NCBI RefSeq assembly: GCF_905475395.1
Contig: NC_058337.1
Location: forward strand, 83,260,368-83,324,367
DNA length: 64,000 nucleotides
From: Chrysoperla carnea
Taxonomy: Eukaryota; Arthropoda; Insecta; Neuroptera; Chrysopidae
Direction of reading: 5' to 3'
Both the position numbers and the translations under genes were made by a program. The notes under the pieces are model-generated. The model worked only from the letters and a program-made list of their open reading frames with translations, ran no database searches and was not told the origin of the DNA. Shown one piece after another: positions 520 to 49,600 of the stretch. Each line of letters opens with the position of its first letter. Position 1 is the stretch's first letter.

Positions 520-1252
520 CAGTGTTCCCAACTCTCAAAATTTTTTCTCCCTAGAGCTCCAACCAAAAACCCCTAAAATCCCTACAATTACGGCGAAATT
601 CCCCTAAAAAAAACATTATTGTAAAATACCTTTTTGGAACTTTATTGAAGAACAAATACGGCTGCAATTCTATGGTAAACGATTATAAATGTTGAGTTTA
701 ATGTTTTAAATTTAATATTTTTTATCGTTATTTATTATAAACAGGACCAGGAGGTTAAAAATAACGTATTTTCTGTTTGAATTCAAAGTTAAACATTTAA
801 GTGGTCATTCAACTAACTGCGAACATCCTAGTCCTTTCTATAAATTACAAAAATATAATAGAATAACTTTACCTTTCAAGTCTGAATCTGTTTCCCAAGC
901 TTTAGAGTATTTTTGTTTATATTTTTTCTTATCTGTAGTTTTAGACATTTTAATAAACAATAATGAATGACATTCCGCATAGATATGTTAATGTTCGTGG
1001 TAAACACCGGTAAACGCCATAATGACATTTGTGTTTTATTTAACTCGCACTCGCTATATCAAAAATAAATGTGATTAGCTAGATATAGTTAGTCCCGGGC
1101 TTATAACATCTCATCTTTATTTGTTTGATTTTTTAATCTATAAAAGTGAATATTCGAAGTTGAAAAAAAAAATCCCTAAAAATACCCCTAAAAATATAAC
1201 ACCCCTAAAAAAACCCCCTTCGACTTTAAAACCCCCTAAGTTGGTAGCCCTG
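520..1252 (-). mobile_element. Non-autonomous hAT-type transposon with 8-bp target duplication
   Basis: The left end reads CAGTGTTCCCAAC and the right end reads GTTGGTAGCCCTG, giving imperfect short inverted termini of hAT style (CAGxG...). Flanking octamers ATATAAAG (512-519) and ATAAAAAG (1253-1260) match at 7 of 8 positions, as expected for an old hAT target duplication. Both subterminal regions are rich in runs like CCCCTAAAA. The interior keeps only a small remnant of a coding exon on the minus strand, so the element could not mobilise itself. Confidence 0.7.
873..948 (-). pseudogene. Remnant first exon of a hAT-like transposase
   Basis: On the minus strand an ATG at 948 opens a 25-codon frame running into a splice-donor-like GTAAAG at 872-867. 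The peptide is Lys-rich with a KYKQKYSKAW core followed by acidic residues and LK. This resembles the extreme N-terminus of BED/hAT-type transposases, which often begin with a basic Lys/Tyr stretch and a Trp before the zinc finger. No zinc finger, catalytic core or dimerisation domain follows, so only the leader exon survived internal deletion. The family assignment rests on this short stretch and on its position inside a hAT-type element. Confidence 0.4.
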
Positions 1253-1258
1253 ATAAAA

Positions 1259-1482
1259 AGATATCTTTTCATGATGACGCTTGAAAATGAGTTTTAGCGT
1301 CAAATTAGGTCATGCGGTCAGTTTAGGCCGTGCTGCCATCTGGGTGAAAAAGAAGCAGCGTCAAGTCGTAAAAAGCTAAATAATGTTTGGGTTTTTACGA
1401 TTTGACGCTGCTAAAGAATTTATTTTTTTCATCCAGATGACAGAACGACCTAAACTAACTTTTTATCATAGAAAAGTATATC
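1259..1482. repeat. Foldback element (imperfect palindrome)
   Basis: Left arm 1259-1378 and right arm 1390-1482 are reverse complements, with the core GCAGCGTCAA..TCGTAAAAA on both sides of a spacer of about 11 bp. The left arm carries about 30 extra bases. Related fragments (GACGCTTGA, GTTTAGGC) recur near 49,676-49,742, so this is a dispersed family. Confidence 0.65.
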
Positions 1483-1662
1483 CTATTTTTGTTATCAGGA
1501 TTAATTTTGAGAGTATTTAATAAATAAATTTAAATTATATATTTTTTAATGTTTTAATAAAACGAGAATAAAGATTTAATTTAAAAAAAAATAATGTATT
1601 TTCATTTGATTGCCATTTCCAAAGTATTTTTTTTGAACAATTGATAATAATATTCACCACCT

Positions 1663-1790
1663 ATTGGGATCTGACATATGGGCGGAGCTAAAAAAACATG
1701 GCTGACATAAAGTGACAAATTTTAAAATTAACATAGCAATACATATTCTTTGTGCAATTTTTCAAGAAGATAATGATTAATATTAATGAA
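1663..1790 (+). repeat. Dispersed repeat, inverted copy at 10069-10197
   Basis: The stretch from TTGGGATCTGACATATGGGC to TTAATATTAATGAA is closely matched in reverse complement at 10069-10197. The two copies lie on opposite sides of the first zinc-finger gene and the lipase. The ends are not defined well enough to name a transposon class. Confidence 0.6.
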
Positions 1791-1817
1791 AGATTTTTTG
1801 CTCGGACCAATCTACAA

Positions 1818-2024
1818 CACACGCAGAATTCGCTACCCATTTAAATTTGCCCGCAATTGAGAGTGCGAATAGCCGCAGCCAATCAACAGCAGGCACATTG
1901 CTTGAGGCAATCTAAAACCATGGATATAGAAATATTAAAATCTAAAACACACGAAATATTATCGTTCTATTTGAATTTCCCGCAAATGAGACCCGCAGCC
2001 AATCAAAAGTAGGCACATTGCTTC
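1818..2024 (+). promoter_or_regulatory. Duplicated CCAAT-box module upstream of zinc-finger gene 1
   Basis: Two modules of about 80 bp (1818-1903 and 1945-2024) share the start AACACACG, a middle TTTGCCCGCAA/TTTCCCGCAA, and a near-identical end. In each end the sequence CAGCCAATCA lies at 1876-1885 and 1996-2005, followed by AGGCACATTGCTT. CAGCCAATCA fits the NF-Y CCAAT consensus. The second module ends about 170 bp before the first ATG of the downstream gene. Promoter function is inferred from motif and position; no TATA box is obvious. Confidence 0.45.
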
Positions 2025-2194
2025 CCCCCTGAGTGATACACCTCCCTCGTCTAAAGTAGAACTTTATACTACATCCCTACTATAATTACTAGATCCGTGA
2101 TATGAATCGAGCTATTTAGTATTATATGTCTATGATTCAAATGTTATCTTGAACATTGATAGACTGTCATAATTTGAGTGCATCGAATAAAAAA

Positions 2195-3696
2195 ATGGAA
2201 AATAATTTATTCAATGATATAAATAATCGTCTTTTAATCGATGAAGAAAACATTCAATTAAAAAAAGAATTCCATACTGAACTTATTATTAAAAACGAAA
2301 TATTTGATGAAAGTGATTCAATGGAACATGATTCAATTAAAGAAGAATATGATTCAATGGAGGACCATGAAGCAATTAAGAAGAGGGAAATATTAGAAGA
2401 AAATGTTACAACAAAACATGAACGGATTGATTTAAATGAAAAGTTTTCTTTGGAAAAATATAAAACAATAAAACTTGAACATGAATTAAATACAGAAATT
2501 ATTATAAAAGATGAATTATTTGATGGAAATGATTCAATGGAACATGAATCAATTCAAGACGAATATGATTCAATGGAGGACCATGAAGCAATTAAGAAGA
2601 GGGAAATATTAGAAGAAAATGTTACAACAAAACATGAACGGATTGATTTAAATCAAGAGGTTTCATTGGAAAAATATAAAACAATAAAACTTGAACATGA
2701 ATTAAATACAGAAATTATTATAAAAGATGAATTGTTTGATGGAAATGTTTTAGAACATGAATCAATTCAAAATGAAATCAAGAATATTTCATGTGACTTT
2801 TTAAAGTTTACTAAGCAAAGCAGTTTAATTGTCCATAAAAGAACTCATACTGGAAAAAAAGCTTTTTCTTGTGAACTTTGTGATAAATCATTTGCTCGGA
2901 AAAACGGTTTAGACTACCATAAACGGACTCATACTGGAGAAAATCTTTTTCCCTGTGAAATTTGTGATATATCATTTACGCTACGATCGAATTTAGTTCG
3001 ACATAAACGAACTCATACTGGAGAAAAACCATTTTTCTGTGAAATTTGTGATAAATCATTTACTCAGCGATCTATATTAGAAACACATAAACGGACTCAT
3101 ACTGGAGAAAAACCATTTTCATGTGAAATTTGTAATAAATCATTTACTCTTCGATCGAATTTCGAAATACATAAACGGACTCATACTGGAGAAAAACCTT
3201 TTTCGTGTGCAATTTGTGATAAATCATTTACTCGGCGATCTATATTAGAAACACATAAACGGACTCATACTGGAGAAAAACCATTTTCATGTGAAATTTG
3301 TAATAAATCATTTACTCATCAAAACGGTTTAGACTATCATAAACGGGCACATACTGGAGAAAAACTTTTTTCTGTGAACTTTGTGATAAATCATTTGCTC
3401 GGAAAAACGGTTTAGACCACCATAAACGGACTCATACTGGAGAAAATCTTTTTCCCTGTGAAATTTGTGATAAATCATTTACTCGGCGATCTATATTAGA
3501 AATACATAAACGGACTCATACTGGTGAAAAACCATTTTCCTGTGAAATTTGTGATAAATCATTTACTCAGCGATCTATATTAGAAACACATAAACGGACT
3601 CATACTGGACAAAAACCATTTTCCTGTGAAGTTTGTGAAAAAAAATTTACTCAGAATAGCATTTTAATTCACCATAAACGAACTCATACCAGATAA
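2195..3696 (+). pseudogene. C2H2 zinc-finger protein gene, frameshifted in the finger array
   Basis: The first ATG of the open frame is at 2195; the frame is open a little upstream but only from non-ATG codons. Residues 1 to about 190 are acidic, low in complexity and built from an internal duplication. They carry six I-K-x-E motifs (K33, K49, K93, K105, K165, K177) that fit the SUMO-acceptor consensus. A degenerate finger lacking its second Cys follows, then six good fingers (pattern [13 protein letters not shown] with TGEKPF linkers). Near 3373 one T appears to be missing relative to the equivalent finger at about 2866. The frame leaves the array and stops at 3413-3415. The other frame then carries four more intact fingers to TAA at 3694-3696, giving about eleven in all. 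Family members are usually nuclear DNA-binding regulators. No ZAD or KRAB domain is visible. It could be a recent pseudogene or an assembly base error. Confidence 0.8.
2351..2782 (+). repeat. 216-bp in-frame tandem duplication inside zinc-finger gene 1
   Basis: A unit beginning GATTCAATGGAGGACC at 2351 restarts at 2567, so the period is 216 bp (72 codons). The copies are nearly identical over the region encoding EAIKKREILEENVTTKHERI and the following IIIKDELFD segment. The second copy differs by a codon deletion near its end. The high identity implies a recent duplication that doubled the acidic SUMO-motif region. Confidence 0.85.
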
Positions 3697-4656
3697 ATTT
3701 AGTAAAGAAAAGTGAACTATTAAAAAAAAAAAAAAATGGTGGGAATTATGTATTATTTGAATTATTTCTATTCAGTTTATCATTTTTTGTCTTGTAATAA
3801 ATAAAATGACGTTTTTTTTTAAATAAAATAATAATTTATTGCAATATTTGAAACAAAATAGCATTTTCATTTTATTATTAACACATTTAAAATTATTATT
3901 TACTAGTTTGGTGTAAGTTAATAATAATTACAAATAAACACGACCTAAAGGTAATCAACACGATTTACAAGAATTAAACACTAAAATAAACTCAGTACAT
4001 ACCTTGGTAGAACTAGACAAGGTATGCTCTTTTGTAGGTAGGAGTAGGATGGGGACATTCTCTCACTCTCTTGCACGGTACCCAGCAGGCAGCGCCATAT
4101 TGCTTATTTATTTATAGTGTAGGCGCTGAGTATGTTTTGTATACAATTACAGGTCCTACCGAACAAGGAGTGTTTTGTATCAACGTATTTTGATCCACTA
4201 AATCTGAATTTTCTTTTGAAAAGTGATATTCTATCTCTTACTTTTTAAAATCTAAATTGACTAGTAAAGACCCGTCAAGAGTTTGACCCATCAAACACTT
4301 CTACTTTTTTGCTGTTTAAACTATTTTTTGATTGGTTACACGCACTGGTCAATATATTTCGGAACGATTCACCAGTATGGCGCCGGTTTATGACGTCATC
4401 AGCACTGGCCAGTGCACTGGTGAATATTAGGGAGTACACCCAATATTTCATCGTTTCAAGGACATTTAAAAATTGAGGCAATAATTACATTTTTTTTTTT
4501 ATTTTTTATCGTTTTATAGGCCTAATATTGTTTCATAATTTTATAATGTTTTTTAGGTCACTAAATAACTAATTTTTAAAATTTTTAAGTTTTAAAAAAA
4601 TAGTTTGAATAAAATTTTAAGTATTTATTTACAAAAAGTAGATAACTTTAATAACG
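3697..4656. other. Intergenic region between zinc-finger gene 1 and the lipase gene
   Basis: It holds an AATAAA at 3796-3801, about 100 bp after the zinc-finger stop, a plausible polyadenylation signal. Next comes a less AT-rich block at about 4000-4180. A block at about 4345-4440 has repeated CACTGG motifs, a TGACGTCA octamer (4391-4398) and resemblance to 55,790-55,835. The last 180 bp before the lipase ATG are very AT-rich. No further gene is supported. Confidence 0.5.
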
Positions 4657-4950
4657 ATGAAAGTGATTTACATGTTAATCCTAATTAATTTTAGTCTGAT
4701 TTGTTGGTTTACTTGTGTGAATAGTGCAGACTTGCAGCGCTTAGAATTGAAGACTTTCAGTCAATATATTGATACTCTCAATGAAACACTTCAATATGGT
4801 GATCTGCAAGAAATGACGAAGCATCTAAAATACTTTGTGTTCAGGTGATTTTTTAACGAATTTGAGATAAATAGAAGTCAGTATTTTTAGCCTGATCTGA
4901 AAAGTTTTTTAATGTTAATATGAGATTGGACCCCGCACAAATTAAATGTA

Positions 4951-5405
4951 AATTGGGTCCCGGTCGATTTGGTTGAAATTGTGAAATGTTATAGATATCG
5001 ATATTCTGATCAAAAGTTGTCATTGACTCAAAGTAGATCCTATGGACAGTTTCAGAGATATACGGGGAGAAAGTGTGTGATATTGGCTGTGTGCTTGAGT
5101 TACCGTTTCTGAGTCTCTGGTGTTAGTTAATGCCTTGAAATTATTTTGGGGTCAAGTTAAGGTCGTATCTATGTCAATCTAAAAAAGGCTTGTTATGCCA
5201 GTGAAAGTCTTGTCAAAAACCCAGAGTACTCGTACCAGAAACTCAGAAACGGTAACTCAAGCCTATAGCCAATATCACACACTTACTTTCCCCGTATATC
5301 TCAGAAATTATCCATAGGATCACTTTTGGCCAATAGCAACTTCTGATCAGAATGTCGAGAACTATAACATATCACAATTTCAGCCAAATCAAGCGAGACC
5401 CTAAA
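4951..5405. repeat. Long foldback repeat in lipase intron 1
   Basis: Left arm about 4951-5118 and right arm about 5222-5405 are reverse complements at about 80-85% identity, including GATATACGGGGA, GTGTGTGATATTGGCT and CTTGAGTTACCGTTTCTGAG. The loop is about 100 bp. There is no coding content. It has the structure of a foldback or MITE, and an intronic transcript would form a stem of some 170 bp. Confidence 0.75.
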
Positions 5406-5428
5406 AGTTACAGACAGTTTTCAAAGTT

Positions 5429-5942
5429 CTTTTCAAAAGAGAAACGAAAACACACGACAAAAAAATGGTCGTAAAACATCGCTGTGACGTAATAATGTTA
5501 ATTGAATAGTAATATGGTAATTAGAATTTTAGTGAAATAAAGATGCAAGTTCTTTATTTAATATTGTATTTAATGAACACATGTAATTACATAAATTATA
5601 ACATAACTTTGTATTCTCAAATTGAACAGAACATTTGATTAATTAATAATAAATTGTATAAGAAAATAATATGTCATCTCATGACTAAGAAACTAACAAC
5701 ACTCTTTATCCTCCATCTTAGGTTATCATTCCATACACACTTATTGTATAAGGGTGCTTTCCAAAGTTTACACAACAGTGCACATAAATACACTGCACAC
5801 ACTGAGCAGAGCGAGCGAGTGAGCGAATTTATTATTTCTAACAAATAGTATACACTGTATACAATTATTAATTAACATTATGACGTTACACGACCTTTAC
5901 GAATATTTTTTGTCGTGCGTTTTCGTTTCTCTTTCGAAAAGT
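5429..5942 (+). mobile_element. MITE-A, complete copy with terminal inverted repeats of about 80 bp
   Basis: The ends CTTTTCAAAAGAGAAACGAA (left) and TTCGTTTCTCTTTCGAAAAG (right) begin inverted repeats extending inward about 75-80 bp, including CACACGACAAAAAA and TAATGTTAATT. The internal 340 bp are shared in inverted orientation with 113-457. The element sits inside intron 1 of the lipase gene, next to the foldback at 4951-5405. A clean target-site duplication was not found. Confidence 0.7.
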
Positions 5943-6465
5943 TCTTTTAAAATTTCCTGTAACTTTAAAATTATTATGAAAAAATAAAAAATAAGAAACA
6001 GTTTTGTTATAAAACTTATAAATGATCTTTTTTTTTTATGTCGCTTTGTGTGTCGTCCTTTGAAAGCTGCAAATAAATTATATTCCCCAAAATTTTGTAT
6101 GAAATTTAGCATGTCTAATTTAAATTATTTATTTGTTTTAAGGACGCCCGATGATGTTGTGATCATAAATGCAACAACGCCAGAAGAAATATTAAAAATC
6201 GATTTTTTTGATTATTCAAAAAAAACAATAATTTGTGTTGGAGGTATTCTATCATGGAATACAAGCACTATCGTAGATTATTATAAAATGATGGCTACAA
6301 TCTATTTAAATTCAAAAAATTATAATTATATTATTTTATTTCATGATTATTATTGCTCGGTTCAGCCGCTAGCACCAACTTGCCCCCATTTAGTATGTAT
6401 CTACTTATTTTTTTTTTTTCTAAAAGAGAAATTCCCATTAAAATTAAGGTCCAATGTTAAATTTG

Positions 6466-10548: not shown

Positions 10549-12405
10549 TTACAATTTAGATTTATCTTCGTTATGAGTTCGTTTATGTTTGATTAAATTA
10601 TTTTTCCGCGAAAATGTTTTATCACATATTTCACATTAAAATGGTTTTTCCCTGGTATGAATTCGTTTATGGGTAATTAAATTACTGTTCACCGTAAATG
10701 TTTTATCACATATTTCACATGAAAAAGGTTTTTGCCCAGTATGAATTCGTTCATGCCGAATTAAGTCGATTTTATTAATAAATGATTTATCACACATTTC
10801 ACATGAATAAGATTTTTCACCTGTATGAGTTCGTTTATGTTTTATTAAATTACTTTTTTGAGCAAATATTTTATCACACATTTCACATGAATAAGGTTTT
10901 TCCCCGGTATGAATTCGTTTATGAAGAATTAAAACATTTTTATAAGTAAATGATTTCTCACACACTTCACATGAAAAACGTTTTTCACCTTTATGAATCC
11001 GTTTATGTTTTATTAAATTACTTTTTTGAGTAAATGTTTTATCACACATGTCACATGAAAAAGGTTTTTCACCAGTATGACTTCGTTCATGCCGAATTAA
11101 AGCTTGTTTTCTTTTAAATGATTTATCACACAATTCACATGAAAAAGGTTTTTCACTTGTATGAATTCGTTTATGGGCAGTTAAATTACTGTTCACCGTA
11201 AATGTTTTATCACATATTTCACATGAATAAGGTCTTTCTCCAGTATGAATTCGTTCATGATGAATTAAAAGGTTTTTATAATTAAATGATTTATCACACA
11301 CTTCACATGAAAATGGTTGTTCCCTGGTATGAATTCGTTTATGTTGAACTAAGTTGTTTTTATAAGTAAATGATTTCTCACACACATTACATGAAAAACG
11401 TTTTTCACCACCTGTATGACTTTGTTTATGGGTAGTTAAATTACTGTTATGCGTAAATGTTTTATCACATATTTCACATGAATAAGGTTTTTCCCCAGTA
11501 TGAATTCGTTCATGTCGAATTAAATCGATTTTTCTATTAAATGATTTATCACACAATTCACATGGAAAAGGTTTTTCACCTGTATGAGTTCGTTCATGTT
11601 GAATTAATAAAGAATTCCGCGCAAATGTTTTATCACACATTTCACATGAAAAAGGTTTTTCACCTGTATGAATTCGTTTATGGGAAGTTAAAGTACTGTT
11701 ATGCGTAAATGTTTTATCACACATTTCACATGAATAAGGTTTTTCGCCTGTATGAATTCGTTCATGTACAATTAAATCGCTTTTTCTTTTAAATGATTTA
11801 TCACACACTTCACACGAAAAACATTTTTCGCTGGTATGAATTCGTTTATGGGTAGTTAAATTACTGTTCACCGTAAATGTTTTATCACATATTTCACATG
11901 AATAAGGTTTTTCCCCGGTATGAATTCGTTCATGCCGAATTAAACTGTTTTTTCTATTAAATGATTTATCACACACTTCACATGAAAAACGTTTTTTATC
12001 AGTATGAGTTCGTTTATGGCTAGTTAAATGGTGTTTTTTATTAAAAGTTTTATCACACACTTCACATGTCAAAGATGTTTCTTCATTTTCAATATTATGA
12101 AATTCTAAATCATTTTCATTAAATATTTCATCTTTAATAATTAATTCAGTATTTAATTGTTGTTCAAGTTTAATTCGTTCATTCTCCATTTTAATATCAG
12201 TTTCTGCAAGTATTCCCTCTTCTTTAATTCCTTCATGTCCACCTTTGAATGGTTCTTTAAAATCTATTGAATCACTTTCACTCACATCAAATATTTCATT
12301 TTTAATAATCACTTCTGTATTTAATTCGTTTAATTTGTTTCTATTTATTTGTTCTTCACTGACAAATAAATCAGTATTAACGTTTTGAAATGTATTACTC
12401 GCCAT
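10549..12405 (-). CDS. C2H2 zinc-finger protein with 17 fingers, plus one finger cut off by an in-frame stop
   Basis: The ATG at 12405 opens a 589-codon frame closed by TAA at 10638-10636. Residues 1 to about 112 are acidic and unstructured, with five I-K-x-E motifs (K35, K61, K72, K79, K91) and the phrase NTE-x-IIK-x-EIF also seen in zinc-finger gene 1. Seventeen C2H2 fingers follow (CEVCDKSF, CEICDKTF, CEMCDKTF types) joined by TGEKP-like linkers; one linker has an extra Gly (TGGEKR). The stop falls where Ser (TCA) is expected in the KPFS linker. The same frame then reads an intact eighteenth finger and a short tail to TAA at 10551-10549, with AATAAA immediately after it on the minus strand. 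Loss of the last finger may be tolerated, so the gene could still work. It is probably a nuclear DNA-binding factor; its targets are unknown. Confidence 0.85.
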
Positions 12406-12469
12406 TTTTAGAAGATTCTTAGATGTAACTGACTGATATAATAAAATGCAGTTCCGTATACTTAGCAGA

Positions 12470-12760
12470 TAAAATTGTTATTTTTCACTCAAACTATTTC
12501 CATTCATTTGGGAATCGTTTGGGAATATAATTTTAGAATTTGGGAATTATTAGTTTTCCTGTAATTAATGATTCTTTTTTCAGCGTATAGTTAGCAGGTA
12601 GAAAATTAAATCCAATTAATATTATGTTATTTGAAAGGAAATCATTTGGGAATTACGATAAAAGCGGTTTCAGAGTTTGGGAATGTATAATTAATTAATA
12701 AGAGTAAGACCTATTTTTTAGTTTATTTATAGGTTATGTTATTTAACCGTACACCAAAGA
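12470..12760 (+). repeat. Upstream flank of zinc-finger gene 2, diverged copy at 15620-15930
   Basis: Shared blocks include TTGGGAATCGTTTGGGAA, ATATAATTTTA, GTATAATTAATTAAT and TTATTTTTTAGTT. With the 9600/15970 repeat pair, this suggests that sequence flanking zinc-finger gene 2 was duplicated to its other side, without the gene. Confidence 0.45.
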
Positions 12761-12763
12761 GCA

Positions 12764-12993
12764 TAGGATAGAGGAGAAGCAGCCCATATGATGAGCTAAT
12801 GTAAAATCGTAGTATACGAGTTTCAGCGCCTCTACCGAGTCAGGCTTTCAAACTTAATAGTTAATAGTCACCCCCGCAAAGTAGTTAAACTTAATAGCCA
12901 TACCCGCAAAGGCCTACAAACTTAATAGTTGATCGCCTCAGACTCCAGATGTCACTTATAATTATACTTCTGCTTCTTGTCTATCCTATTAGT
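12764..12993. repeat. Short inverted-repeat unit with three internal tandem units
   Basis: GCATAGGATAGAGGAGAAGC near 12768 is matched in reverse complement by GCTTCTTGTCTATCCTAT near 12973, which bounds about 230 bp. Between them AAACTTAATAG recurs three times (about 12851, 12888 and 12919) with CCCGCAAAG between units, a small irregular minisatellite. It directly abuts the left end of the 2.5-kb TIR element. Confidence 0.5.
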
Positions 12994-13142
12994 CCAAGAG
13001 CCCGCTTCGGCCAGACGCACATCATTTCATAAAACCCTAAAGTTTATCTGCGCACGTCACCAACACAGGTAAGAACGATGAGCGACTATGTAGTTTAGGT
13101 AGTGGTTACCTTGGCAGGTAACAGGTAACAAAGGTGTAAAAA

Positions 13143-13722
13143 ACAGCACCTCAATTACATTAAGACATAAAGCTCTATTTTTTTACATTTTCTTCAGAAT
13201 AATATTTAAAATGACGTCATCCATTGCCAGACACTTAGTATAGTTTCAACCCCCTGCCAGACACCCCCAAACTCTAAAAAATTGTGATTACACTTACATT
13301 ATAGTATAAAAGCTGAATTTTATATATGTTTCTTGGGGGGCTATGAAAAGAAGTTACCTCAGTAGCCGGACAGTTTTCAAGGTTTTTTCCATCTTGCCAG
13401 AGGCCTTGAGAGTCCGCCGTCGGTGTAGCAGCACCTCAAGTACATTAAGATATAAAGCTCTATTTTTTTACATTTTCTTCAGAATAATATTTAAAATGAC
13501 GTCATCCATTGCCGGACACTTAGTATAGTTTCAACCCCCTGCCGGACACCCCCAAACTCTAAAAAATTGTGATTACACTTACATTATAGTATAAAAGCTG
13601 AATTTTATATATGTTTCTTGGGGGGCTATGAAAAGAAGTTACCCCAGTAGCCGGACAGTTTTCAAGGTTTTTTCCATCTTGCCAGAGGCCTTGAGAGTCC
13701 GCCGTCGGTGCGAGCGCGAGGC
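13143..13722 (+). repeat. Tandem 285-bp duplication of the promoter module in the left TIR
   Basis: The stretch starting CAGCACCTCAA near 13143 restarts near 13432, and CTATGAAAAGAAGTTACC occurs at 13341 and 13626, so the period is 285 bp. Each unit contains TGACGTCA (13212-13219, 13497-13504), TATAAAAG (13305-13312, 13590-13597) and the ATG-started frame. Only the second unit leads into the rest of the exon and an ATG|GTGAGT donor-like site at 13751-13759. The right TIR has a single unit. Confidence 0.85.
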
Positions 13723-13779
13723 AATATATATTCAGGCGGGTTTAAGTGAGATGGTGAGTTTAATAAAAAAACAAATCTA

Positions 13780-14325
13780 AACAAGTGAAAACAAACAATT
13801 GACTGAGTTAAGTGTTGAAATACCATGTATAGTCAGTGTTGATTTCTTTATCACATTACACATACAAACATGTGACACATACATAACTGATAATCAAGTA
13901 TAGTACATATTATAAAATTTTCGCCTAATTGGCGCCCTCACGGATAAACAGTGATGTTTACGAAAAAATGTTTCAAACAAAAGTTGTTTAATTTTTAATA
14001 AGGAACATTTTTTACTTTTAAACTTTTGTTCTATCTCTAACGGTTTACAAGACCCAATTGACCTATGATGCTCATTTACGAACTTGACCTCACTTTTTAC
14101 GTCCTGAGTACCCTGTAAAAATTTCAACTCGATATCTTTTTTCGTTTTTGAGTTATCGTGTCCACAGACGGACGGACGGACGGACGGACAACCGGAAATG
14201 GACTAATAAGGTGATTTTATGAATACCTATGACAAAATTTTTTTCCTAACATCATTATTTTTAAGCGTTACAAACTTGGGACTAAACTTAATATACTATG
14301 TATATTTCATACATGGTATAAAAAG
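13780..14325 (+). repeat. R1 dispersed repeat, full-length copy inside the TIR element
   Basis: It runs from AACAAGTGAAAACAAACAAT to ACATGGTATAAAAAG. Family landmarks in order are: ACCATGTATAG, GTGATGTTTACGAAAAAATG, AACTTTTGTTCTATCTCTAA, GACCTCACTTTTTACGTCCT, a (ACGG)n run, CCGGAAATGGACTAA, and AGGTGATTTTATGAA. There is no long ORF. The same family recurs at least eight more times in this window on both strands. Confidence 0.8.
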
Positions 14326-14535
14326 TAATCCATAAATTTTTCGAGTTTTGTTAAAATTTTTGAGAAATTCAAGTTTTGACTGTGTGAGGTAATAATATTG
14401 CTTATCGTATGAAATCCAATGAACAAATATTTTTATTATATTCATAGCCATATTATAGACAGTAAAAAAATTCTTATAATTATTACAGAGTTAAAAAAAA
14501 TATTATTGTCAATATTTTCATAATCATCGTCACTA

Positions 14536-15172
14536 CTACTCCGGTCCTTGATTGATGTCAATATCACCTTCTTCGTCAGTTTCTGTAAAAATTTAATCGA
14601 GTTAATACAATTATGAATAATAATAAAATCATGTACATAATATGATATAGTAATTACATACCTAATATAATTTCTAACGAATCACTGACATAATTTGGTA
14701 GCTGATCCCCTTCAAACCATTTGAAATGGTATTGGTTATTTTCTTGTACCCAACCATTATTTTCTGGCTTATATATGGTTGGACTCTTTAGGTGAGCATT
14801 GTTCCAAATACAACATATATGATTTGCTCGTAAAAATTGTTGTAACAGTTCGCTTTTACATGGTGGTAGATTGCTGGCGTCGAAATTCCGCAATTTTTTT
14901 CGATCAAAAGCTTCGTCCACATCAGAGACCGTATATGAATCAATGAACATTTGAAGGCGCGCAGCATCAACATCAATTATGCTACCGACATTGTATATGT
15001 TGCATATGAATTTCTGGACAATATTAAAAACGTTTCGTTGTCTCACCATCTCACTCAAACCCGCCTGAATATATATTGCCTCGCGCTCGCACCGACGGCG
15101 GACTCTCAAGGCCTCTAGCAAGATGTAAAAAACCTTGAAAACTGTCCGGCTACTGGGGTAACTTCTTTTCAT
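14536..15172 (-). CDS. Transposon-borne protein of unknown function, two exons
   Basis: The ATG at 15172 lies in the right TIR, and the frame continues into the unique interior to 14662, where TTAG|GTATGT is a good donor. An acceptor ending TTTTTACAG at 14583-14585 leads to a second exon, 14582-14536, adding an acidic tail (ETDEEGDIDINQ...) and TAG. The exons join in phase for 185 residues. A stretch at about residues 88-160 shows spaced conserved-looking residues: LPPC, then LRANHICCIWNNAH, a GW, and FKWFEGDQLP. I associate this LPPC-RA-W-GW-KWF-LP pattern with uncharacterised proteins multiplied in invertebrate genomes; that is recollection, not a search. No catalytic motif is seen. The first 35 residues may be untranslated leader, since a later Met (codon 42) could also start. 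Confidence 0.55.
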
Positions 15173-15520
15173 AGCCCCCCAAGAAACATATATAAAATTC
15201 AGCTTTTATACTATAATGTAAGTGTAATCACAATTTTTTAGAGTTTGGGGGTGTCTGGCAGGGGGTTGAAACTATACTAAGTGTCTGGCAATGGATGACG
15301 TCATTTTAAATATTATTCTGAAGAAAATGTAAAAAAATAGAGCTTTATGTCTTAATGTAATTGAGGTGCTGTTTTTTACACCTTTGTTACCTGTTACCTG
15401 CCAAGGTAACCACTACCTAAACTACATAGTCGCTCATCGTTCTTACCTGTGTTGGTGACGTGCGCAGATAAACTTTAGGGTTTTATGAAATGATGTGCGT
15501 CTGGCCGAAGCGGGCTCTTG

Positions 15521-16212
15521 CTCTATATAGTCTTTGCCGTACACCTGAACCATTAATTGTTATATGGCAGTATGGCGCCAATATTTAAATACTACTGAAT
15601 AATTTATTTTTTAATTTATGTAAATTTTAAGTTTTATTTTGCATAAAAACTGTTCTTATTCAATTGGGAATCGTTTGGGAAGATTTAGAAATATAATTTT
15701 ATTAATTAGGACTGATAAGTTTTCATTTAATTAATTAGTTTTTCAAAGCGCCAAAAATTAAATTTTCACCATTTTTAAGTTATTTGATAATAATTTACCC
15801 GGAGACTAATCTAATTTATTAGGGAATTACATTTAACATGGTTTCATTATTTGAGACAGTATAATTAATTAATTATTTACATTTATTTTTTAGTTGATTT
15901 TTTATGGTTATATGAATGGCGGCAATATTCAAATGTTACTTCATGCATTGTACTTACTTTAAATTATCTTTGTTATCTTTATTAGGAGATCATTTGTAAA
16001 AACTAACATGTTTGCCTAATAATGTTTCGAGTATTATATGTCTTCTAGAGTATTAGGAGAGTATTATTATTTAAATTTATTTAAATTTAATAAGCGGTAC
16101 ATTTTTAAACTGTGAGTATATTTTTCGTCAACCCTAGACATAATAAGCTTGAAAATGAGGTGTAAATCATGGAATTTGATAAAGGAATACGAAAGATAAG
16201 GGTAGGATAGAA
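15521..16212. other. Duplicated flank right of the TIR element
   Basis: It contains the second copies of the 12470-12760 sequence (about 15620-15930) and the 9600-9865 sequence (15970-16212). In the original locus these two blocks lie on opposite sides of zinc-finger gene 2; here they are adjacent. No gene is present. Confidence 0.5.
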
Positions 16213-18813
16213 AAAAACTTGCTAGAGTTATAATAAATTAGATTAAACAAATAAGTATTATTTCCGTCAAAATAATTAAGTACATCAAATTTATTGGTTA
16301 CCTTACATTGTAGACGAATCCACGTAAAACAATTGTGGCTTTATTCTTTGGCTGTATCAAGGAGATTATAGAGAATTGGACTATCAAGTACTTTTATTGG
16401 ATATATTGTAAAATAATTCTTAACATTTTTGGGCGATTCTACATTTTATAAAAATTTAAGTACATCATTTTGAATTGTACAAAGCGGTAGGGGATGATAA
16501 CATTTGTTTAGAAATGGATTCAAAAACTAGAAACTACAAGCTTTCAAATAAGATATATCGGAGATTCAGGTTCAATCATTTTTCGCAAAGAGGTATTTGA
16601 AATTTGGGTAAAGTTTGGAGTATTTAAAATTATCCTTTAATTGTTTTGTTGAGTATATGATCGATCAATTAATTATTTTTACTGCATACAATGTTGTGCA
16701 ATCATTAGCAATAATCATATATAAATCATTAATCATACTTAAATGTGTAATGAAAGTTGAAGAACTCGTAATTAAATAAACTTTTATTAACATTTATTAT
16801 AAATTATTGTTTCTGCTTTTTAATTTAAGGGAGTACTTAAGTTCTCAATTGCCTATCCTTAATCCTTAAGTAGGACAAATATTTCTTTTCTCGAGAGTGA
16901 TTATTGACTGCTATGGTAAGAGATAATCTAGAAACTTGCATCTCTCTAGAATGTGAAATTTATGTCCAAACATAAATTCATTAGAGTTTAGCCAAGTGGT
17001 TATCCTTCATAAAATATGACCATATACCTAAACTTACCGTTTAATTTCAATCTTTAAAAACTGTCTTATGGACGGATAGCTTCAGTAGGTAATAAATATT
17101 AGATCACCAAAATGATAATTTTGTAAACGAAATAATCCATGGATATATCGAGTGGAAGGAAGGGCACCCACTCTTCCCAAACAAAAATTACCATTGATTT
17201 GGATAGTTAAGTATGTGACTATGTTAAATTATTCTGTTTTGCCCATGAAAAAAATCTATAAGCTCTGTAATCCTTTTTTAATTCAAAAGCTGAATACATT
17301 GCCCCCCTTAACATTATGTAGGTATGCTATATATTTATATTATTTTTATTATTAAATTAATTATTAACAAGTCTTATTCTATTATTATGTTTATTTATTT
17401 ATTTATGGGATTATTTAACTAGTTATACTTGTAAATTAAGCCATTTTATGAATTTTAATTGATCAAAATAAACTTAAATGGATACAAAATATGGTAAAAT
17501 TATTCAAAAAGTCAATGTGATATCTTTTAAATCGAACGCAAGTTATATGATTTATCTATCTATCAAGTCATATTTATTTATCTTTGCAAATAAATACATT
17601 ACCAGAAACAATAAAAGGAACGCTTTCGAATAGCAAATTTGGTATGAAGAATTTTGGTTTGAATTTTCCAAAATAAAAAATATTTTTGTATTTTTTGATC
17701 AGTTTTTAGCATATAAGTACTCTTGTGGTTTTTTCTCTAGACGCTTAGTTTTTAAGAAAAATGTTTATTTTTTTTTGTTTCTGCAGGAATTCACTTAGCT
17801 AACGCAGCTTCTGGACCACGAATTGTTTTCTTTTAAATTTAGATTTAGAAAAAAAAAAATTTTTTAATTGGTTTTGGAGAAAGCTCGTGGCAAAATTCAA
17901 AAAAGTGATACTTATTCATTCTATTATCAAGCTTTTTACATTCGTCAAATTAGATGGTTCACTCAAAAAGAGAATTTTGGCATAAAAAGGAATATTGTCA
18001 TGAATATGCCACAAACCGTAACATGTATCTACAAAAATTTGATAAAAGACTAAAAAATTAAAATAGAAATATATACATTTCAAGTTAGGTACAACAAGCT
18101 TTTATTGTACTGATAAGATAAAATAAATTTTTTCCCTGAATCACCTTTATGAACGCTAAATAAAAGCTTGAATAACGTTTAGGTAGTATATGGCTAGTCA
18201 AGAATAGCATACGTAGATATAGTTCTACAAAATTTAAGGAATTTTCGGCGTCTGAGCTAAAATATCATGAAAAATGTGTTACAAACTAATTTATTTGTAT
18301 AACATACTCAGTTTTATTTTCACATTAAACCCTGAAAATAATTTTGAATTAATATCTATCGTTTATGTTCACATTTTAGAGACGTAGATAAAGTTTTGTA
18401 CGATGTACGTGTGAGAACGCATTATTAACGTACTTCTACGATTGTCCAAATTTCGCAGGCATACGTTAATAATGCTGTTAACCCAACAGTATCGTAAAAA
18501 TGCTTGCTATTTTAAAGCGTTCCTTTACTTGTTTCTGGGAGTGTATTATTACATAAATTAAATATTAGTTGTACTGTTTAAATATTTAATTTATAAATCA
18601 TGTGATTTTAATTGAAATTATGTGAAATAATTTTATAAATTATATTAACTCCATAGTGGACGCAAAATATACCAAAAACTTTTGTTGCGAATATTATGCA
18701 GAAATTTTGAATATTAAACATGTATCTGAAATTATATTGAAGAAGTGTTTGCATTCAATTTCTGATAATAGTAAGATGTAAAAAAAACTTTAAACTACTA
18801 AACTACCTTCAAA
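16213..18813. other. AT-rich region with one coding-like fragment
   Basis: No supported gene. At about 17786-18053 there is coding-like sequence on the plus strand. After a TTTCTGCAG acceptor-like site comes a 16-codon frame (GIHLANAASGPRIVFF, stop). About 70 bp further on, an open stretch changes frame near 17970, with the second frame ending in KEYCHEYATNRNMYLQKFDK. It may be a decayed exon or a retrocopy. The rest shows nothing beyond AT-rich sequence. Confidence 0.3.
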
Positions 18814-19230
18814 AACAAGTGAAAACAAACAATTGACTGAGTTAATTGTTGAAATACCATGTATAGTCAGTGTTGATTTCTTTATCACATTACATATACC
18901 AACATGTGACACATACATAACTGATAATCAAGTATAGTACATATTATAAAATTTCCGCCCTAATTGTCGCACTAACGGGTAAACAGTGATGTTTACGAAA
19001 AAATGTTTCAAAGTAAAGTTGTTTAATTTTTGATAAGGAACATTTTTTACATTTAAACTTTTGTTCTATCTCTAACGGTTTACGAGATGGGTCCTACGGA
19101 CCCAAGACCCAATTGACCTATGCTGCTCATTTACGAACTTGACCTCACTTTTTACGTCCTGAGTACGCTGTAAAAATTTCAGCTCGATATCTTTTTTCGT
19201 TTTTGAGTTATCGTGTCCACAGACGGATAC
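18814..19230 (+). repeat. R1 dispersed repeat, truncated copy
   Basis: It starts AACAAGTGAAAACAAACAAT like the full copy at 13780 and is colinear with it up to the point where the (ACGG)n run should be. There it ends at CACAGACGGATAC. Confidence 0.8.
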
Positions 19231-19354
19231 ACAAACAAATAATACAATCTTATAAGTGACGTATATGTTTGAAATAAACAATGTTGTTGCTATGCAAATA
19301 ATTGATACTATGTGTTATATATATATATATATATAACATATCAATTATGTTCTG

Positions 19355-19785
19355 AACTAATTTGCGCTGTCACGGGTAAACAATAATCTTTACAAAAAAA
19401 TGTTTCAAACAAAAGTTGTTTATTTTTTTGTAAGGAACATTTTTTACATTTAAACTTTTATTCTATCTCTAACGGTTTACAAGATGGGTACTACGGACCC
19501 ATGACCCAATTGACCCATGTTGCTCATTTACGAACTTGACCTCACTTTTTACGTCCTAAGCACGCTGTAAAAATTTCAGCTTGATATCTCTTTTCGTTTT
19601 TGAGTAATCGTGACCACAGACGGACGGACGGACGGACGGACGGACAACCGGAAATGGATTAATTAGGTGATTTTATGAACACCTATACCAATTTTTTTTT
19701 TGTAGCATCAATATTTTTAGGCGTTACAAACTTGGGACTAAACTTATAATACTATGTATATTTCATATATACATGGTATAAAAAG
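19355..19785 (+). repeat. R1 dispersed repeat, 5'-truncated copy
   Basis: It starts within the family at the CACGGGTAAACA landmark and runs to CATGGTATAAAAAG. It has a (GACG)n run of about six units at 19,617-19,645. A (TA)n tract (about 19,317-19,334) separates it from the preceding copy. Confidence 0.8.
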
Positions 19786-19979
19786 TAGACAAGTTTTGTT
19801 AAAATACTTACTGGCTACTGTTTCGAAAATTTACTTAACTCCCGAGTAATATATAAAACAAAGACAAAATTGGTACAATCGAATATGTAACAGAAAACAG
19901 AATACATGAAAATGAAATAAACCGCTCACTTTTTGATAGATTTGGAATGTGTTTCTTTGCGCCAATATTTGTTTCTGTT

Positions 19980-34826: not shown

Positions 34827-35395
34827 TTTTTATACTATGTATATATGAAATATTCTAAGGTATATTAAGTTTAGTCCCAAGTTTGTAACGGTTAAAAATA
34901 TTGATGCTATGAACAAAATTTTGGTATAGGTGTTCATAAAATCACCTAATTAGTTCATTTCTGGTTGTCTGCCTATCTGTCGTCTGTCTGTCATGACGAT
35001 TACTCAAAAACGAAAAGGAATATCAAGTTGAAAATTTTATAGCTTGCTGAGGACGTAAAAAGTGACGCCGAGTTGGTAAATGAGCAACATAGGTCAATTG
35101 GGTCTTGGGACCATAGGATCCATTGTGAACCGTTAGAGATAGAACTAAAGTTTAAATGTAAAAAATGTTTCTTATAAAAAATTAAACAACTTTTGTTTGA
35201 AACATTTTTTGGTAAACATCACTGTTTACCCGTGAGAGCGTATATTATACGCAAATTTTATTATTATATGGGTATATCAGTTATATGTGTATGACAAATT
35301 GACAAATATGTATGTGTAATGTGACAGAGTAATCAACACTATCTATACATGATATTTCAACAATTAACTCAGTCAATTGTTTGTTTTCACTTGTT
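34827..35395 (-). repeat. R1 dispersed repeat, full-length reverse copy
   Basis: It runs from TTTTTATACTATGTATATAT to TGTTTGTTTTCACTTGTT, with all family landmarks in reverse order and a degenerate CTGTCTGTC run at about 34,970-34,995. Confidence 0.8.
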
Positions 35396-35694
35396 TTTTT
35401 AAATCTGAGATATTTTCTTACGTATTTACTGCACTAACTCCATTTGTATATAGAAAATGTCATTGTTATATAGAAAATATCATTATTTAGGTGATATTGC
35501 ATTTTTTTTTTTTTTTTTTTTTAATATAATCTATTATAACAATTCTGAGAAGACGAAGTGGAATTCGAAAACGAGCAAGTTTTTTGCTATCAGCAATTTT
35601 GCATATGCCATTATTCTATAAGCGTTATGCTTGGTAAGTGTAAGTTCTATAATGTCACAGGTTGATGCAAGTTTCGAAACGAAATATAAATATA

Positions 35695-36150
35695 AACAAG
35701 AGAAAAAAAGCTATTGACTTACTTAATTGATGAAATTCCATGTATAGACAGTGTTAATTACACTGTCCCATTACACATACATACATGTCACACATAAATA
35801 ACTGATTTTCCCATATAATACATACTATACAATTTGCGCCTTCACGGGTAAACAGTGATGTTTACAAAGAAATGTTTCATATAAAAGTTTATTTTTTTAT
35901 AAGAAACATTTTTACATTTAAACTTTTGACATGTTTACAAGATGGGTCAAATCCCATCGGATCCCATAGGATTTACACAAATCCTAATTGACCTATGTTG
36001 CTCATTTATGAACTTGATCTCACTTTTTGAGTTATCGTGTTAACAGACGTACAGATGGACAGACAAACATACAGACAGACAATCGAGAATGGACTAATTA
36101 GGTGATTTTATGAACACCACAATTTTGTTCGTAGCATCAACAGGCCTTTT
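35695..36150 (+). repeat. R1 dispersed repeat, diverged forward copy
   Basis: It starts AACAAGAGAAAAAAAGCTAT, carries CCATGTATAGACAGTG and GTAAACAGTGATGTTTAC, and stops near TTCGTAGCATCAA. It faces the copy at 34,827-35,395 head to head with about 300 bp between. Confidence 0.75.
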
Positions 36151-39671: not shown

Positions 39672-40090
39672 ACCGTCCGTAGAACCCATCTTGTAAGCCG
39701 TTAGAGATAAAACCAAAGTTTAAATGTAAAAAATGTTGCTTATAATAAAATAAACAACTTTAATTTGAAACATTTTTTCGTTAACTTACCCGTGTTTATC
39801 CGTTAGGGCGCAAATCAGAACAAAACTTTGATGTCCATTTTCTCCAAAACTATAAAAGATAGGGAGTTGAAAACTTGCAGACAGCTTCATCTAGTCTTGT
39901 GAAAAATTTTCGAAAAATCAAGAAAATACCTTTGAAAATTTTTGAAAACAAAATAAAATGGCTGCCGAAAGGTGGTATAATTCATAATTGTGTTGGTTTT
40001 TTAAACTTTCCTCATTTATTAAAAATGTATGCACTTTCTATACAGGATATTTCAACAATTTATCAATTGTTTGTTTTCACTTGTTATAAT
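39672..40090 (-). repeat. R1 repeat, subfamily b copy
   Basis: It starts at CCGTCCGTAGAACCCATCTT and includes the block AAAGATAGGGAGTTGAAAAC found also near 21,940. It ends TGTTTGTTTTCACTTGTT. Confidence 0.7.
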
Positions 40091-46600: not shown

Positions 46601-49600
46601 AGTATACGGGCAGCCCTGCCGAGTATCTTAAGTTATTTTATCCAGGCCAACCTTGAGAACTTCAAAGTGTGTTTTCGAGCCTAATAGTACAATTTAATTG
46701 ATTCGAATTTATATTTTTGCTAAATATTCGCTCCGAGCGTGAATTTCGTTTCCATGACAACGATACACTACTTTAATTATAGAATTAATGGATGCATATA
46801 TAATTGTGTGGATTGCATTGAAAACTTACATTTAAAATTTAATATTATTGTTTCACAAATTTAAATAAATAATTACGATAATTAACATTTGAAAAATAAT
46901 ATTTGTACAATTTGATTTCTTATTTTCACAATTTTTAATGCATTAAGTTTAATTAATTAGTGTTTTTCAATCATTTTAATTTGACAGTTTCTATATCATT
47001 AACATGTAAATAATTGCAAATTAGTCATAACAGCCCACTTTATCTCCAAAATTTTTCACTTAAAGCGCTGGCATCGATTTTATTATCCCTACCATGACTA
47101 CGCACACAACGAATAAGTTATTTTAAAGCAGAATTAAAAGATCGAACCACTTAATTTTTATTTTTTATTAAAAGATCGAACCACTTAAACTAAGTATGTG
47201 CTTTTAAAACGTACTTTGTTTTTTTTCAAGGTTGGCCTCGGTAAAATAACTCAAGTATAGATGTGTTAATGAACCTAAACGTTAAATCTGCTAGCGATAT
47301 ATAACATAAAGAAAACAAATGTTGTTGAAAACATATGCTCTTGTCATTACGAAATATTCGATTTTTCGGACAATTATTTCCATTGTTGCTTTCTATTTTT
47401 GTTTTATTATTATTATTTTTTTTTTGTTATATTTGTTTGTTTGATTTTTTTTTCGAATTAATTTTTTTTTTGTTTCATCTTATTTTGTACACAAGTACGT
47501 CTAAATTATTGTTTTTATATCATGTATATCATATAGCACAGCGTGCGTGTCCGTAGAATAGTTAGATCGAAAATCGAAAATTTAATGTAATGTATATATA
47601 TATATATATATATATATACATTACATTAACGTTTGTTTGATTAACGTTTCTCACAAAAAATTCCTAGGCCACCGGGATTTTTATTATTATTTTATCAGTC
47701 ATAGTTATCTGAAAAAATGATGAATCATATAGGTTATCTTTTTCAATTGGATATTTCTATATCAAAAACTGTTTATACATGGTATTTAAACAATTGATGT
47801 AGTCGATTGTTTGATTTCTCTTGTTGATCTTGTAATATTTCAAATAAATAATAATTTCGCAAGTATTTCATTGAGTCATTGCTATGACTAACATTGAAAT
47901 GGCAACAGCTACTGCGGCTAGAACAATTAGCTTGTTTATTGCATTAAAAAATGTAATTTTTTTCATAATCTGAATGTGGAGATGCAGCTCGCCTGCACTC
48001 GCCTGGATAAATAGAGTTGCCTTTGACTCGGGAACAAAAGGCTAGACATTCCAAGTATCACCTTCACATTCTCGTTCTTTGTGCTACTTCCCGAGAGTGT
48101 GGAGAAGACTTTAGTCTCTATATATGGAAGTTACGTCGCGTTCACACTTTTTTTTTTGCTTTACTTTAACTTGTTTTTATTGTAATCATTTTTTTTTTTT
48201 TTCAAGGTTGTGTTAATAGTGTGACCTTGATTGCTTTGTCATAACAAGTTTGAAATACAAAAAAAAAAATATGTTTCATCGCATTGCATAATTCTTGAAG
48301 GCTCCCCCATACCTTAATAACGTATCATTTTAAAATGTAAATATTACGATTACGCAACTAATCGGTCGAGAGTGCGAGAATTTATGAGAGCATTATTCTT
48401 TCGAAAATCCATAGACTAAAAGCTAAGCGTCATTTTTATTTAAAAATCCGTCTGCCAGTAAGTAAATGAACAGTTAGTTACCCACTTACCAACTAGTTTT
48501 AAGAAAGATAATTTAGCACCCTGTTTTGCTATGTGCGTTCATTGGGAAACAGTATGAAAATTTGAAATGAATAGAAAAGGGAAAAAAAATTTAAATTCTG
48601 AAAATTTAGATAATAATTATTAATGTGTAAAAGTTTGAAGTATAGTTATCGATATTATTTTTTATAAATATCGACTTATATTTTCCATTTAGTTTCATTT
48701 ATAACCTTGCTTTTTGTCACTTTTTATACCCTGTATATATGTAAAATATATCAAGGTATATTAAGTTTAATCCCAAGTTTGTAACGCTTAAATATATTGA
48801 TGCTACGAATAAAATTTTTGCATAGGTGTTCATAGAATCACCTAATTAGTCCATTTCCAGTTGTCTGTCTGTCTGGAAGCACGATAACTCAAAAATAGAT
48901 GTCAAGCTGAAATTTTTATAGCGTGCTTAGGTTACTCAGGACTCAGGAATTAGGTTAGAACATTATATAATGTTCTAACCTAATTTGCGTCCTTTGTATG
49001 TATTATATGGGAATATCAGTTAGTAACACCACAGTCGTGTTAATATACATGACTGTCGCTATCTAAGAGTACTTTAGAGTACAGTGGTAAAGAAAGACTA
49101 TCTTTCTTTACCACTGTCTATACATGGTATTTCAACAATAACCTCAGGTAATTGTTTGTTTTCATCTTTATTTTAACATAAGGGATTTTTCGAAAGATGC
49201 TATGCTTTTGAAAGCAATATAGTTTTGAAATTAGAGGAAATCAAAAGTTTTTTTGAGATAAATACAATAATTTACTAACAGGAAGTCATTTTGAGATAAA
49301 TACAATAATTTACTAATAGTCAAAAGAAAGCCCTCCGGGATGTACAAACTCATAACCGTGTAGAGCCTTTATATGTATTTATTTGTTCTTTGTTTGAAAA
49401 ATAAATGTTCAACAGACGATAGGGAGTTGTCATGTAAACAATCGGAAACTACCTTTAAACATAGTTTCATAATATTGAACGAATGTGAAAGAGAAAACAA
49501 TTATTATATTTATAACGGAAATCAACCTTTTGAGATTTCAAAATAATTATAAATAGGTTGAAGATATCTTATCGTTTTACTATATGTATAAATAACAATC

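Follow-up and report, generated by a model that had tools for sequence, protein, structure and literature searches.

The window, by which is meant the whole 64,000-nucleotide stretch of Chrysoperla carnea contig NC_058337.1 that was analysed, holds a 2,536-bp element (12990-15525) that has long inverted arms and TAT on both flanks (Table 1). The original prediction had bounded the element at 12995..15520, five bases short at either side, as the ends lie at 12990 and 15525 with the TAT duplications immediately outside them. Upstream of the element are two long C2H2 zinc-finger-like ORFs, at 2153-3415 (+) and 10636-12477 (-), both of which contain tandem 84-bp finger repeats. A search of the window against Rfam at gathering score gave no match.

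Table 1. Positions in the window of the element's parts, its insertion site and the repeat nested within it
Feature	Position	Strand	Remarks
Target-site duplication of the MITE, CCGTACACC	12747..12755	.	Second copy at 15537-15545
hAT-like MITE, left and main part	12755..12989	+	Other piece at 15526-15536; older than the element
Left target-site duplication, TAT	12987..12989	.	Same as 15526-15528; rule kept in 29/29 paired copies
Left arm	12990..13758	+	769 bp; 3' end in gene sense; terminus TAGTCC
Left arm, composition			Outer 154 bp, then tandem units 13144-13425 and 13429-13710
TGACGTCA	13212..13219	.	Further copies at 13497 and 15296; motif search
TATAAAAG	13305..13312	+	Further copies at 13590 (+) and 15203-15210 (-); motif search
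Nested dispersed repeat	13779..14324	+	Bounds approximate; about 550 bp; unrelated to the element
Exon 2 remnant, ETDEEGDIDINQGPE	14536..14582	-	Frame shifted by the loss of 2 bp that are present in L026 and L028
Intron, predicted GT-AG	14583..14661	-	79 bp; splice sites identical in L026, L028, L011 and L020
Exon 1	14662..15172	-	Arm frame from the ATG at 15172 fused to a C-terminal piece of the transposase-like frame
Right arm	15042..15525	-	484 bp; 5' end in gene sense; terminus TAGAGC; single unit
Right target-site duplication, TAT	15526..15528	.	Equal to the left copy

The element sits within the right terminal repeat of the hAT-like MITE, and only this end of the MITE is interrupted. Once the element is removed, 24 of the first 28 positions agree between the two ends of the MITE. 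The MITE, which is separate from the Academ-like element that it hosts, resembles hAT elements in its CAAAGA termini and its 8-9 bp duplication. The 9-bp CCGTACACC has just two occurrences in the window when both strands are searched, and the duplication is 8 bp if the MITE start is set at CAAAGA. The possibility that CCGTACACC was the element's own MULE-like duplication and that a Tc1-like insertion occupied the left end was considered and rejected, because the MITE ends together with the 3-bp rule described below account for this direct repeat. The dispersed repeat nested within the element aligns with 17 more pieces of the window (E<=0.01) and is missing at the equivalent site of a longer copy of the element (L026), which runs straight through. 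This repeat starts with AACAAGTGAAAACAAAC, ends with GGTATAAAAA and contains an internal GACG run; its many copies in the window include 55952-56504, 18813-19787, 34827-35396, 35682-36139, 48719-49164 and 39689-40085, among others.

The inverted arms are real, as 428 of 431 bases are identical between 12995-13425 and 15090-15520, and they are beyond chance because near-identical copies were found on several contigs of the genome. They had been put at about 476 bp each; the right arm in fact measures 484 bp and the left 769 bp, the difference arising because the left arm has a 282-285-bp unit twice. Within the window the sequence GCCRGACAC is confined to these arms, where it occurs twice per unit, and it may be regarded as a candidate binding motif for the transposase-like protein of the family. 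The TATA, the CRE-like motif and the inward ATG that had been predicted in each arm were confirmed in all three arm units, each of which carries TGACGTCA, TATAAAAG and an inward ATG 38 bases past the TATA start (13343 and 13628 on the plus strand, 15172 on the minus strand). The left arm has two TATA/ATG sets, from its doubled unit, and its frame does extend to ATG/GTGAGT, the donor noted earlier. These motifs alone are not rare, as the 64 kb contain TGACGTCA at 8 and TATAAAAG at 16 positions. A tandem repeat at 57299-57690 (period 207, 1.9 copies) has TGACGTCA inside it at 57480, and another lies nearby at 57165. The inward TATA and ATG of both arms are copies of one arm sequence and do not represent separate promoters designed for a pair of genes. 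The original prediction had seen in them a candidate for an undescribed type of element, built for convergent transcription that would yield double-stranded RNA over its full length; the inward TATAAAAG and ATG in every arm unit of the window are consistent with such a design, and so are the arms of other copies, which reach four units.

When the genome (559 Mb, 337 contigs) was searched with the arm, near-identical copies were recovered across several contigs. A 22-base end pattern, allowing up to two mismatches, gave 31 forward and 33 reverse matches, a genome-wide total of 64, and a reversed control pattern gave none. Paired by position, the 64 matches resolve into 29 elements and 6 single ends. 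All but one of the pairs (28/29) span at most 3.5 kb, and the remaining pair spans 7.5 kb. The smallest, of about 0.6 kb, is at G000:C2:75172108-75172707, where arm ends some 600 bp apart delimit a MITE-sized member of the family.

The 3-bp duplication rule was discovered in a set of 20 copies that consisted of 19 fetched loci and the window, and within that set all 20 copies have it, against 38 of 380 crossed pairs. In the nine pairs that were fetched afterwards, which include the ends (L067/L068) of a copy outside the set of 20 (L021), it was again present in every one (9/9), with 20 of 72 crossed pairs agreeing. The duplicated targets are mostly A/T-rich. The two ends of a copy are always one TAGAGC and one TAGTCC or TAGTCT (20/20 and 9/9), and each arm has between one and four units among the 20 copies. 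Over bases 7-150 the two arms of a copy are 98.6-100% identical in 19 of the 20 copies, the remaining one (L022) scoring 0.375 owing to a one-base indel shift in what was an ungapped comparison. The terminal hexamers differ in all 29 pairs although the inner arm bases are nearly identical, and from this pattern conversion between the arms seems to halt before the extreme ends. Longer, variable-length duplications with filler were also sought in 45-bp flanks; words of at least 8 bases were shared by the two flanks in 4 of 20 copies versus 17 of 380 crossed pairs, which was too weak to be retained.

The 7.5-kb pair corresponds to L026, a copy of 7,513 bp that has arms of two and three units and one large gene. 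A search with the arm for longer copies was what the original prediction had proposed, with the provision that it would fall if these belonged to a known superfamily, and this has largely come about with the finding of this relative. From its ATG the L026 frame runs for 1,581 codons without a stop, after which come an intron and a second exon that encodes an acidic stretch. This frame does not start at the arm ATG but at position 1,320 of L026, beyond the arm, the inner limit of which is at 766. With one large gene and no antisense frame of at least 80 amino acids listed, L026 argues against an element organised around convergent transcription.

The long copy also accounts for the ‘spliced gene’ into which the right-arm frame had been said to run. 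The intron is plausible, having GT-AG borders and a length of 79 bp, and it is followed by a short second exon; the junction between the arm and this gene, on the other hand, is an internal deletion. Comparison with L026 indicates that the ‘spliced gene’ represents the tail of the transposase-like frame, which that deletion has brought into frame with a short reading frame in the arm. Within the core of L026 (positions 1,000-6,441), all 19 short copies examined retain pieces of the 3' part only; in the window, L011, L020 and L028 what is left aligns with L026 from about 5,673-5,687 to 6,441, and the other 15 have lost more. Between the window and L026 the tail piece shows five synonymous changes and one non-synonymous change (67 and 281 sites, respectively); the substitutions are few, yet they point towards past constraint on the full gene. 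The tail protein had no relatives among prokaryote contigs, and viral contigs yielded none by the tail protein, by a 20-base arm pattern or by the full protein. In the PDB the tail protein matched designed proteins along stretches of 17-19 residues, and these matches were judged to be chance.

The fused frame could itself encode a working short protein, of about 42 arm-coded residues and the transposase tail, that acts for example as a repressor in competition with the full-length protein. It is open in all four copies in which the whole tail piece is visible (the window, L011, L020 and L028), three of which are identical over 348 nt. The copies are young, however, and because of this an open fused frame is expected even without selection. 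Moreover, a 2-bp deletion in exon 2 shortens the acidic tail in the window, L011 and L020, leaving 15 residues of it in the window as compared with 34 in L026, and in the remaining 15 of the short copies examined the tail piece is partly or mostly gone. A functional short protein is therefore very unlikely, and the fused frame is better read as a product of internal deletion.

A search of the genome with the long frame of L026 gave 672 first-look candidates, 30 of which were scored, and relatives were found at 38-79% identity. The protein alignment was built from L026 and eight relatives with long open frames, including L040 and L046, which are nearly alike; L034, open for 1,241 codons and then interrupted by a stop, was excluded. 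Between residues 1185 and 1412 the acidic residues of five motifs (DG, FD, HEEAD, DTD and G-x-D) are invariant in all nine members. D701, D943 and E947, outside this region, are likewise invariant in all nine and could conceivably belong to a DDD/E transposase core. By comparison with three archaeal FEN1 proteins, the order of the motifs is that of the FEN1/XPG nucleases. A pattern describing this order, which was written after the motifs had been seen, matched 9/9 members, 3/3 archaeal FEN1 proteins and 2 of 36,000 shuffles, and it matched 0/9 members once their last 480 residues had been removed.

None of the formal homology tests recovered this resemblance. An hhalign comparison of the family profile, made against three close archaeal FEN1 proteins only, gave a probability of 0.5%; a PDB profile search returned no relevant match; no XPG model in Pfam matched any of the nine members; and FEN1 and the family proteins scored no better than shuffles when compared in either direction. 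A search of the genome with XPG_I recovered none of the listed transposase-like relatives, the matches that it did find being presumably exons of host nucleases. One sub-threshold XPG_I match (G000:C5:73962209-73962376, E 6.6) lies about 50 kb from transposase-like relatives and might be due to chance. The Pfam model DUF6589 matched the middle region of five of the nine members, with a best E of 2.4e-4 that is under the curated score; in the genome the same model gave no match at E 0.001, a threshold at which the controls were also silent. When the whole L026 frame and pieces of it were run against Pfam, there was no transposase family even weakly matched among the hits listed, no MULE transposase and no THAP domain.

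A second, related family is represented by four copies (L053-L056, with L061-L064) of 8,141 bp each on contigs C3 and C6, which are 99.95-100% identical to one another and look recently active. Their open frame of 1,533 codons encodes a protein that is 38-39% identical to that of L026; a 150-bp tandem repeat lies within their terminal inverted repeats, which measure about 642 bp (98%) and have the termini TAGTCTAAGATCCCGCTGC, and all four copies have 3-bp duplications. The two families thus have in common the protein type, TAG...CTA ends, a duplication of 3 bp and tandem repeats in the arms. No TATAAA is present in the first 900 bp of the left end of the second family, however, and TGACGTCA is found nowhere in its element; therefore the promoter-like motifs are not a shared design. 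That a family with similar ends and 3-bp duplications should do without these motifs is difficult to reconcile with an element type built for convergent transcription. The organisation had also been thought to belong to no standard class, but maize MuDR provides a precedent, with two convergent genes that are transcribed from promoters in both of its terminal repeats (PMC3310237). Indeed, two inward promoters are what one would expect of any long-armed element whose arm holds a promoter. An undescribed, convergently transcribed type thus appears extremely improbable.

We consider it probable instead that the element arose by internal deletion from a long-armed cut-and-paste transposon and is non-autonomous; its most likely place is in the AcademX lineage of the Academ superfamily. 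The hallmark of AcademX is a large protein that includes an XPG-type nuclease; 3-bp duplications are not confined to this lineage, as Harbinger and CACTA also have them. AcademX is the best fit because of the 3-bp duplications and the nuclease-like motif order; together with the 1,581-codon frame of L026, these features bring what had been proposed as an undescribed type within the range of a described lineage. In the account given in PMC10045372, AcademX elements have 3- or 4-bp duplications and a nuclease and AcademH elements have 9- or 10-bp duplications and a helicase, and the family described here resembles the former in its 3-bp duplications, its terminal inverted repeats and its large protein with nuclease-like motifs. 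Membership in Academ is accordingly likely, the likeness to AcademX being drawn from the published description of that lineage.

The transposon might alternatively belong to another or an unnamed superfamily that makes 3-bp duplications, whether Zator-, Harbinger- or CACTA-like or new, in which case the resemblance to XPG would be one of motif order only. No formal homology was detected, whether to XPG or to a Pfam transposase, which is what such a reading would predict, and Zator, too, makes 3-bp duplications (PMC10045372). Yet the long frame and its pieces had no Pfam transposase listed among their matches, even weakly, and it is AcademX that combines 3-4 bp duplications with a nuclease (PMC10045372). 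Another superfamily is, on balance, rather unlikely, and assignment to an AcademX-like lineage is preferred.

Where the family departs from AcademX is in its arms, which are about 0.5-1.3 kb long and are built of one to four tandem units. Tandem arm units in Academ were not reported in any of the literature matches listed, and in an Academ-like element they may be unreported, which would be a modest novelty. P elements encode a THAP-domain transposase and make a duplication of 7-8 bp; the present family differs in having no P-type protein or THAP match and a 3-bp duplication. The Drosophila foldback elements Galileo and Tetris have long terminal repeats with variable numbers of internal tandem repeats of about 140 and 220 bp (PMC4168063, PMC4079207), and Galileo has absorbed part of its gene into the terminal repeat (PMC4168063). 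The likeness to Galileo, which belongs to the P superfamily, and to Tetris, the transposase of which is not known, is one of arm architecture and not of kinship.

Had the full copies been Polintons or MULEs, as the original prediction allowed, other features would have been expected. The typical MULE duplication is about 8-11 bp, and Polinton/Maverick elements carry integrase, polymerase and capsid genes. Here, by contrast, a 3-bp duplication is found in 29/29 paired copies, a single long gene is seen and there is no match to a MULE transposase. Long terminal repeats with inward promoters (putative in this family) and tandem terminal repeats are nevertheless shared with MuDR and with the tandem-TIR MULEs, whose tandem terminal repeats multiply (PMC3310237). 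Duplications are given as 4-10 bp for MuDR/IS256 and as 6 bp for Polinton/Maverick (PMC10045372). Academ elements of the whitefly have been reported as homogeneous copies (PMC9143410).

If the AcademX-like assignment is correct, the protein of about 1,600 residues encoded by the long copy would bind the arms of short copies in trans, the arms serving as recognition sites. It would then cut at the TAG...CTA termini, assuming that the nuclease-like motifs reflect function, and reinsert the element to give the 3-bp duplications. The number of units per arm would vary through unequal exchange, as was suggested for repeat-number variation in Tetris (PMC4079207).

Among the paired copies, short derivatives stand to the long copy as 28 to 1. 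One could imagine that the arms at both ends have become arrays of repeated promoter-start units and that the short copies spread as suppressors as well as passengers, feeding convergent or fold-back RNA, or a short fusion protein of arm and tail, into the silencing of their parent; this we regard as very improbable. What was a candidate for a new type of element has now become a resolved case, with a long copy, deletion derivatives, exact ends, duplications and a related 8.1-kb family. The sets of long and short copies should be useful for testing how an Academ-like transposase chooses its ends and how arm repeats multiply and, should the arms prove to be promoters, the short copies would offer a ready-made case in which to test whether a DNA transposon silences itself.
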